Below are positions 31,171 to 50,032 of a DNA stretch of 58,539 nucleotides, one piece after another. The notes under the pieces are model-generated. The model did no database searches. It was not told where the DNA came from and worked only from the letters and a program-made list of their open reading frames with translations. Source of the stretch: Bdellovibrionales bacterium (GTDB lineage Bacteria > Bdellovibrionota > FAC87 > UBA2466); the NCBI GenBank assembly GCA_005776395.1, contig SXPJ01000011.1, forward strand, positions 1-58,539, given 5' to 3'. A program made the translations under genes and the position numbers. Position 1 is the first letter of the stretch, and every line of letters starts with the position of its first letter.

Positions 31171-31613
31171 ACTGACTTCCACCTGCATTGAGGGCATGTC
31201 CTATATCACAACCGAAAGTAAACTCCTACAATGCGAAAGCGTCAATATGTTTTTATTCTATATTTTCAATATCTTATGACGGTCTCCAGAGAGAGCAACC
31301 CTCTAAAGTTAACTGACAGCAGTTCTCGGTGAATAAATTTTGAGACTAATTATTGAGGAGTACTAAAAAAACCTTTTCGCAAAATCTCGATGTGCCATTG
31401 AGGTAATTTTATGCGGGTTCGTTCAAGAATTTGGATATGAAAGTGGGACTATCAGCTCCAAAGAAAGTCGCTGTACGCCCCACTTTCATATCCAAATTCT
31501 TGAACGACTCCGCATTTTACCATGCGCTGTGGCTCACCGAGAATTGCTGTATTAAAAGACTCAGGCTTTAATTTATGGCTATGGGGGCGTACTATTCTCT
31601 TTAAGACCCTTTT
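31171..31613. other. Intergenic region between nrnA and the DOMON-like gene
   Basis: This 443-base gap holds the nrnA promoter side (31171-31315) and a MITE-like element (31318-31548). The rest (31549-31613) leads into the DOMON-like gene. No protein-coding signal with a credible start was seen. Confidence 0.6.
31318..31548 (+). mobile_element. MITE-like element, copy 1
   Basis: A 231-bp non-coding element with terminal inverted repeats AGCAGTTCTCGGTGA (31318-31332) and TCACCGAGAATTGCT (31534-31548). Its centre is a large hairpin: arms 31421-31447 and 31479-31505 are perfect 27-base inverted repeats, extended outward by ten bases with two mismatches, around a 31-base loop. Copy 2 lies at 48642-48802 in inverse orientation by its flanks. 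No transposase is encoded, so it would need one in trans. No target-site duplication is visible at this copy. Confidence 0.8.
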
Positions 31614-42261: not shown

Positions 42262-42618
42262 CTAAAAAATATAGTAACTAAAATTTAAAAAATCTCGTCC
42301 CCAGTGGACAGCTATTTTCCACATAGGTTTTAGCCAGAAGCCCATTTTTAATTTTTTGCCACTTACGGCATGAGTTATTCTCTGTGCTATTTGCCCAGCT
42401 AGGACTCTTAAAAAGTTATTTAAATTATCTAGAGAATTCGATTTTACTAAAAGATGAATGTGCTTGCTATTTAAAGAGTTGTTATAAACTTTAACCTGAA
42501 AGCACTTTGAGGTCGCAAGAAGAAGAGTTGAAATCAGCTTTTTATTTCTAGCAAGTCTTAACACAGGGACTCTAGCTCTTAAAACTAACACAAGTTTCCA
42601 ATATCTCACGACGTGCAA
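42262..42618 (-). pseudogene. Remnant of a RAYT/Y1-type transposase
   Basis: A 118-residue remnant of a REP-associated tyrosine transposase. The middle matches the family well: the HUH motif as SKHIHLLVKSN, then NNFLRVLAGQIAQRITHA and WGRDFLNFSYYI. The protein starts with TTG inside what is normally the N-terminal third and ends abruptly at YYIF where relatives continue for 20 or more residues, so I take it as truncated at both ends. Catalytic Tyr assignment was not possible. Confidence 0.6.
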
Positions 42619-48630: not shown

Positions 48631-48641
48631 AGACTAGTTCC
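48631..48641 (+). repeat. Left target-site duplication of MITE copy 2
   Basis: AGACTAGTTCC occurs directly to the left of the element at 48642 and again directly to its right at 48803-48813. An 11-base perfect direct repeat at both ends is the mark of a transposition event. The right copy contains the stop codon of the downstream nuclease gene. Confidence 0.8.
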
Positions 48642-48802
48642 AGTAGTTCTTGCTGAGCCACAGTGCATATTAGAAAGCGGAGTCATTCAAGAATTTGGAT
48701 GTGAAAGTGGGGCTACCAGCTCCAAGCAAAGTCGCTGTACGCCCAACTTTCACATTCCGCCAGGGACTAATTAGCCTCAAAATTTATTCACCGAGAATTG
48801 CT
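48642..48802 (-). mobile_element. MITE-like element, copy 2
   Basis: A 161-bp non-coding element related to copy 1 (31318-31548). Its ends AGTAGTTCTTGCTGA and TCACCGAGAATTGCT are imperfect inverted repeats (11 of 15). The flank reading CCTCAAAATTTATTCACC is the reverse complement of the left flank of copy 1, and GAGCCACAGTGCAT matches its other flank. The internal hairpin keeps about 17 bases of its arms; one arm is truncated. It is inserted between greB and the EEP-family gene, with 11-base direct repeats at both sides. Confidence 0.8.
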
Positions 48803-48805
48803 AGA

Positions 48806-50032
48806 CTAGTTCCTTTTGATAAGCTTTTGTAAATCAAGTTCAGTCCAGATTGGGTAGTGATCTGATGGGTTCGTTTGCCGTTCAGCGTAAGTTTGGGGAA
48901 TAGCTTTTAAAGATCCATCCTCATTTTTATAACGATAGACTTCGGCCTTTAGGACAAAATCTTGATGAGGGGGAACCAGTAGAATGGAATCCAGTTGAGA
49001 AGCTTTTCTTGAGCCGCCTTGAGGATGGTAGGTGTGGGTGATACGGCCAAAATCTCCAACTGGAAGAGCATTGGGGGTGAGATCTAATACATCTTTTATG
49101 TTGAACTCTCTTAGTGCGCTGTACTCAGGTTCCGAGTGAACTTCAGCATTAAAGTCCCCCATAAGCATTATAGGAATATTGGGGTGTTTTTCTTGATAGT
49201 ATTTAATTATTTCTACCATTCGCTCTTCTTGAGCAGTTCGGATCTCTCGACTTTCAGGGTCCAATTTATTTTCACTGCGTTTCGATTTTCCATGAACTCC
49301 GGCCAAAATAAAAAGAGGATCGCCACCGGTTGGGGGTCTAGCAAGAAGCACGGCAAAGTCTCTTGAAAAGACCTTTTTAATTTCAGGGTGATGCTCATTG
49401 GAGAAAGGCTCATCTCTATGGGATTCATAATCAAAATGGAGAGGGATAGTTTTTTTGATGAGAACGCCTATATGAATACCTCGAGAATCATTGCCCTTAA
49501 TAATTAAAGGGCGCCATTGGTTTTGAAGATCCTGTTCAGCAAAATTGGCAAGTGATTCCACCCCCTCAACCTCTTGTAGAAATAGGATGTCAGGTGAAAT
49601 TTCTTTAATGACTTCAGCGACTCCAGTGATTTGGCTTTGAGACTTGGGTGCTTCTGGTTTTGTTTTGACTCTTCTGCCAGTAGTTAAATCGGGTTCATAT
49701 CGGCCGACCATTTGTTTCAGGTTTAATACATTGTAAGTGGAAATAGTAATCTTGTTCTCTTCACTGAATCTTTTGTAGTTCTGAGGTTCAAGAGGTTCTA
49801 AAGTTAAGATCTCTGAGGGAGGAAGAATAGCACTGGAGTTAACCTCTACAGATCTCTTGTTTACTGCTTTGAGTTTTTTATAGCTTTGGGTGTTAAGCGC
49901 ACTAAACTGACCTACGCAATCTCTTTGAGATTTAAGGTTATTCGGGGCTCTTAATTGATCTAGATGAGTATGAGCGCAGTGTAAGTTGAGAAATAGAACA
50001 GCACTTAAAATGAAGAGTCTAAGTAAAGTCAT
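48806..50032 (-). CDS. Lipoprotein of the endonuclease/exonuclease/phosphatase family
   Basis: A 408-residue lipoprotein with a lipobox L-N-L-H-C (Cys19) and an EEP catalytic domain in the last 310 residues. Motifs are TISTYNVLNL, LFLQEVEGVE, GVHGKSKRSENK, LMGDFNAEVH, QLDSILLVP and NPSDHYPIW, giving the full set of Asn, Glu, Asp-x-Asn and Asp-His catalytic residues. It is exported and anchored in the envelope, and may degrade DNA, RNA or phospholipid head groups. The gene ends inside the right target duplication of the MITE-like element. Confidence 0.87.
   Translation of the reverse strand: MTLLRLFILSAVLFLNLHCAHTHLDQLRAPNNLKSQRDCVGQFSALNTQSYKKLKAVNKRSVEVNSSAILPPSEILTLEPLEPQNYKRFSEENKITISTYNVLNLKQMVGRYEPDLTTGRRVKTKPEAPKSQSQITGVAEVIKEISPDILFLQEVEGVESLANFAEQDLQNQWRPLIIKGNDSRGIHIGVLIKKTIPLHFDYESHRDEPFSNEHHPEIKKVFSRDFAVLLARPPTGGDPLFILAGVHGKSKRSENKLDPESREIRTAQEERMVEIIKYYQEKHPNIPIMLMGDFNAEVHSEPEYSALREFNIKDVLDLTPNALPVGDFGRITHTYHPQGGSRKASQLDSILLVPPHQDFVLKAEVYRYKNEDGSLKAIPQTYAERQTNPSDHYPIWTELDLQKLIKRN

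Follow-up and report, generated by a model that had tools for sequence, protein, structure and literature searches.

The window analysed here, a stretch of 58,539 nucleotides from a Bdellovibrionales bacterium, carries two copies of a short MITE-like element whose ends and flanking blocks are opposed in genomic orientation. Copy 1, the full-length one, occupies 31317..31549 on the forward strand, its limits being those of the family ends that gave the best match set in the genome search. Its left (31317..31332, +) and right (31534..31549, -) terminal inverted repeats were recovered by an inverted-repeat search as a 17-nt pair, 94% complementary, at 31316-31332 and 31534-31550. Between them lies a hairpin composed of a left arm of 29 bp (31419..31447, +), a 27-bp loop (31450..31476, +) and a right arm of 29 bp (31479..31507, -) that matches the left one perfectly. 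When folded as single-stranded DNA, this hairpin reaches -40.3 kcal/mol, and none of 200 shuffled sequences did as well. No recognisable 9-bp target duplication flanks copy 1, with 2 of 9 bases agreeing at the family's boundary. Copy 2 (48641..48803, -) is internally truncated; most of its left part is gone, along with the outer portion of the left arm, so it is not a full partner of copy 1. It is enclosed by a 9-bp target duplication (GACTAGTTC; 48632..48640 and 48804..48812), 9/9 identical. Its 27-bp loop (48714..48740, +) runs in the same genomic direction as that of copy 1 even though the element is reversed, so that one of the two loops is turned relative to its own flanks, just as had been noticed from the sequence beforehand. 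The same earlier note had placed the copies at 31318-31548 and 48642-48802 and had given the perfect arms of copy 1 as 27 bp; both copies and the arms are indeed present, but each element end lies one base away from where it had been put and the arms measure 29 bp. We denote the loop orientation of copy 1 as S and that of copy 2 as F; genome-wide, these turned out to be the minority and the majority orientation, respectively, so the window pairs a full-length minority copy with a truncated majority copy. As to a promoter that might be turned with the loop, the sole promoter-like site near copy 1 lies outside the element and is at chance level. Elsewhere in the window, a 118-aa reading frame (42262-42618, -) presumably resembles part of a REP-type (Y1) transposase, and an Rfam search of the window returned one tRNA and nothing else.

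The genome that contains the window (2.76 Mb; 2,758,714 bases in 106 contigs) harbours dozens of copies of this family. Its consensus element of ~230 bp consists, in order, of a terminal inverted repeat (CAGCAGTTCTCGGTGA...), a left block, the hairpin (arms of ~30 bp, loop of 27 bp) and a right block, the family ends being CAGCAGTTCTCGGTGA.../...TCACCGAGAATTGCTG. A genome-wide pattern search allowing up to 3 mismatches found 49 left ends, 50 right ends and 34 loops; the loop pattern matched 14+20 times and its reversed control 0+0 times, which excludes chance. Among the 33 elements with both ends, the 9-bp target duplication is perfect in 15, has one mismatch in 12 and is weaker in the remaining 6; copy 1 belongs to these last 6 and copy 2 to the perfect ones. 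The elements are thus short, non-coding and multi-copy (36 loops, by the more permissive search described below), with terminal inverted repeats and 9-bp target-site duplications, and their MITE-like nature, as proposed before, is borne out. In five copies (L030, L085, L086, L098 and L101) the hairpin has been wholly or mostly lost by internal deletion, the outer arm bases still being joined in L030 and L086, and L082 keeps the hairpin on one side only.

The family probably has an autonomous partner, an insertion sequence of the DDE type, as judged from sequence resemblance. Four left ends situated at contig ends (L080, L081, L084 and L091) continue into another sequence that is common to them. 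Behind the left end of L084, a 67-aa open protein start looks transposase-like: it matches PF13808 (DDE_Tnp_1_assoc) with an E value of 0.0032, below the curated cut-off, and is 48% identical to a plasmid-encoded 'hypothetical protein' of Saccharobesus. The latter protein in turn matches DDE_Tnp_1_assoc (E 1e-5) and DDE_Tnp_1 (E 0.0021), both below cut-off; one unrelated primase model scores just over its cut-off, and among the NCBIfam models IS1634 falls far below. A complete autonomous insertion sequence was sought in the assembly, which yielded fragments at contig ends only. The left end L107 was also considered as a partner and was rejected, as no long reading frame resembling a transposase lies behind it.

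To score loop direction, loops were searched for in the extracted loci with up to 5 substitutions (the stricter limit gave the 34 loops mentioned above), and one or both element ends served to orient each of them. Both orientations occur between matching arms: 32 of the 36 distinct loops are F and 4 are S. The S copies are L001, which is copy 1 of the window (C1:31317), L002 (C63:5547), L003 (C2:869) and L004 (C81:28310). Each of L002, L003 and L004 is flanked by a perfect 9-bp target duplication, which makes a chimeric origin from two copies less likely for these three; the same cannot be claimed for copy 1. The earlier note had named the outcome that would speak against a turned loop, namely one fixed orientation in all other copies with the odd copy explained by rearrangement. 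Instead, three further S copies were found, with perfect 9-bp target duplications and scattered on the tree of the flanks. Could the assembly have produced the flips? Palindromic arms would allow a short-k graph path to run either way round the loop, and many contigs do terminate in or near these repeats. On the other hand, when 21 contig ends were compared, two pairs entering the same repeat were found to share 140 and 141 bases, the other overlaps being 113, 67, 34 and 28 bases. These two pairs suggest a final word length k near 141, which exceeds the ~89-bp hairpin (31 bases in each arm plus 27 in the loop). Judged from the assembled contigs, an assembly artefact therefore appears very unlikely.

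A tree was built from the left and right blocks, with arms and loop excluded, for the 26 of 36 loop copies that have both blocks; L026, L028, L029, L042, L046, L058, L059, L066, L067 and L082, each without a whole flank or arm, were omitted. Parsimony places 4 orientation changes on this flank tree (bootstrap 5-95% range 4-4), and the starred branches alone force 2, although these make up only 2-3 of 23 and the trees are weak. Shuffled orientation labels give a mean of 3.9 changes, so the S copies are not clustered at all. A single S clade is rejected on the flank tree (p-AU 0.032) and again on a tree with outer arm columns added, which also has 4 changes (p-AU 0.005); when copy 1 is omitted, 3 changes remain and the p-AU becomes borderline (0.051). 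Two S copies have F sisters: L002 pairs with L008 (support 89/92, or 99/96 with arm columns) and L003 with L017 (87/74, or 92/73 with arm columns). L002 and L008 differ in 24 aligned columns as they stand and in 8 once the loop is turned. Loop orientation has thus changed separately at least twice among the copies, and 4 times by parsimony, in a direction that these unrooted trees leave unspecified; going by the majority, F would be the ancestral state and the changes would run from F to S.

These data bear on the possibility that two old subfamilies exist, a single flip having occurred in a source element from which all S copies descend. The rarity of S (4/36), the limited tree support and the borderline one-clade test obtained without copy 1 would fit such a history. 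It is nevertheless decidedly unlikely, given that the S copies lie next to different F copies, that the one-clade tests reject it, and that the S loops carry differing variants, those of L001, L003 and L004 being matched by no other listed copy. The same loop variants are relevant to homologous recombination or gene conversion between copies, whereby the palindromic arms would let the loop of another copy enter either way round. Arms of ~30 bp are indeed common to many copies in both genomic orientations. However, the GATA loop variant of L003 is also found in L016, L017 and L023, though not in L013, the fourth F copy of its clade, so its loop seems to have been turned within its own lineage. 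The three unmatched loops likewise point away from a donor among the listed copies, and the perfect target duplications of L002-L004 oppose crossovers between copies, though not conversion. We regard an exchange between copies as unlikely. An inverton-like switch operated by a site-specific recombinase would also turn a segment flanked by inverted repeats, as is seen here; yet this segment is merely 27 bp long, the ~230-bp element is too small for a recombinase gene, and the arm sequence differs between copies (for example, in L027 and L017), which leaves no fixed or conserved recombinase site. Such a switch is extremely unlikely.

The arms of the hairpin evolve in a coupled fashion. Arm changes were counted in the 30 of 36 copies that have two 30-base arms; L006 (both arms one base short), L024 (unequal arms) and L042, L059, L067 and L082 (arm cut or missing) were left out, and L003, in which a 1-base loop insertion had displaced the arm by one base, was trimmed before counting. 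Among the arm positions that differ from the consensus, 29 are paired, that is, changed in the same way on both arms, and 34 are changed on one arm or differently. Shuffling the right arms among copies for 10,000 rounds gave a mean of 3.0 paired positions and a maximum of 11. Related copies share some of these changes; counted once each, 18 are paired and 28 unpaired. In L006, which is outside this count, one base is absent from both arms alike. Paired changes tend to lie farther from the loop than unpaired ones (Mann-Whitney p = 0.009 on the 18 against 28 distinct changes, with no cut). A positional cut at 22 gives p = 0.0004, the cut having been chosen after the data were viewed. All 15 changed cells at the loop-adjacent positions 25-30 are unpaired.

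The excess of paired changes (29 observed, 3.0 expected) indicates arms homogenised in cis, for which selection is the alternative cause. The hairpin could act as an RNA or as a transposase substrate, arm changes being kept only as pairs while the direction of the loop is neutral. Besides the paired changes themselves, this idea is favoured by the low divergence of the loop, which at 0.074 differences per column varies less than any other region (right flank, 0.148). However, selection on structure would not generate loop inversions, and the GC pairs that close the loop should then be the best preserved, yet it is precisely at positions 25-30 that every change is unpaired. Moreover, six copies exist without the hairpin or most of it (the five internal deletions and the one-sided L082). 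A selected structure is, in our judgement, a rather unlikely cause.

Loop inversion in this bacterial MITE family is real and recurrent, and template switching at the hairpin is its simplest explanation. Overall, we consider it about two-thirds probable (0.68) that this is a non-autonomous MITE family whose central hairpin has been reshaped repeatedly by such replication errors. The polymerase would switch to the complementary strand within one arm, copy the loop backwards and switch back in the other arm, leaving the loop inverted and the outer element unmoved. In a foldback switch on one strand, one arm would be copied onto the other, and the arms would stay matched. In that case the loop-side part of the arm would serve as primer and the outer part would be rewritten, and the gradient of paired changes is what this model leads one to expect. 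Template switching could thus have produced both the loop flips and the coupling of the arms; an intermolecular switch for the loop flips and a foldback switch for the arm homogenisation would be two variants, for which a common cause is all that is argued. The flips would have arisen in resident copies, not in source copies that later transposed. We favour template switching over a recombinase or a rearrangement because arm homogenisation together with loop inversion is its published signature. The earlier suggestion that inversion proceeds by recombination or hairpin resolution is accordingly half supported: the coupled arms suggest a polymerase that switches templates at the hairpin, and not classical recombination. 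It is tempting, if rather speculative, to go further and view the hairpin as a standing mutational device, each copy being a hotspot where the loop turns over and back again and each arm is rewritten from the other, except within a fixed clamp of ~6 bp next to the loop. The 27-bp loop sequence would then be kept with its direction free, and the genome would be a natural archive of template-switch events.

As far as our searches show, the type of mutation is already known and its setting in a many-copy bacterial MITE is new. In Saccharomyces, template switching between inverted repeats has been described to homogenise the arms and, when the switch is intermolecular, to invert the spacer (PMC8604942). 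Both signatures recur here; the yeast events concern coding genes, in which spacer inversion substituted 2-5 bp, whereas the present loop measures 27 bp and sits in a MITE. Loop-only inversions have also been found in rRNA hairpins, Bacteria included (PMC8794818). There, too, the loop has flipped on a perfect stem without being displaced, and an inter-strand template switch is held responsible, although the loops are short functional RNA loops, mostly of 4 nt and up to 7-8 nt. Hairpins in chloroplast genomes likewise have loops of 4-24 bp in two orientations that change repeatedly on the tree (PMC6824564); these are orthologous single-copy organelle sites compared across species, unlike the paralogous mobile-element copies in one bacterial genome considered here. 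A further bacterial parallel is a mention, in a review, of inversion of the Correia repeat enclosed elements of Neisseria (PMC10969869). These are MITEs reported to invert, but the wording of the review passage implies the whole element, while in our family only the hairpin loop inside it turns. No paper listed in our literature searches, whose coverage excludes most subscription journals, names an inverted loop or spacer in a bacterial MITE.

Copy 1 had no match in 38 other genomes, and the left end was absent from the 14 among them that belong to the same order. Exact scans, two of genome_contigs and one of viral_contigs, likewise found no copy, though such scans would miss diverged ones. 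Since the family was seen only in this genome among those searched, no orthologous insertion with the opposite loop was found, and the orientation changes are known from the comparison between copies. Evidence for template switching at inverted repeats usually comes from rare, isolated events. The 36 hairpin copies in one genome amount to many parallel trials of the same hairpin, so that one could compare directly how often loops flip, arms are rewritten and hairpins are lost. They also caution against taking paired changes in hairpins of this sort as a sure sign of selection for RNA structure.

A second repeat of ~270 bp, with ends ATACCTGGCCC..., was observed inside MITE copies at an identical spot (TAATTTTAT). 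It is present in L105 at 1590-1857 (C13:14289-14556) and also on contigs C12, C14, C57 and C64. In L105 its direction is opposite to that in L104 and L106, reflecting either two insertions or an inversion. The copy at C41:35770 (L129) and the window copy at 48641 have an unusual right end (CTGTGGCTCAGCAAGAACTACTG) in common and look like sisters; in the former, the second repeat sits in the arm.
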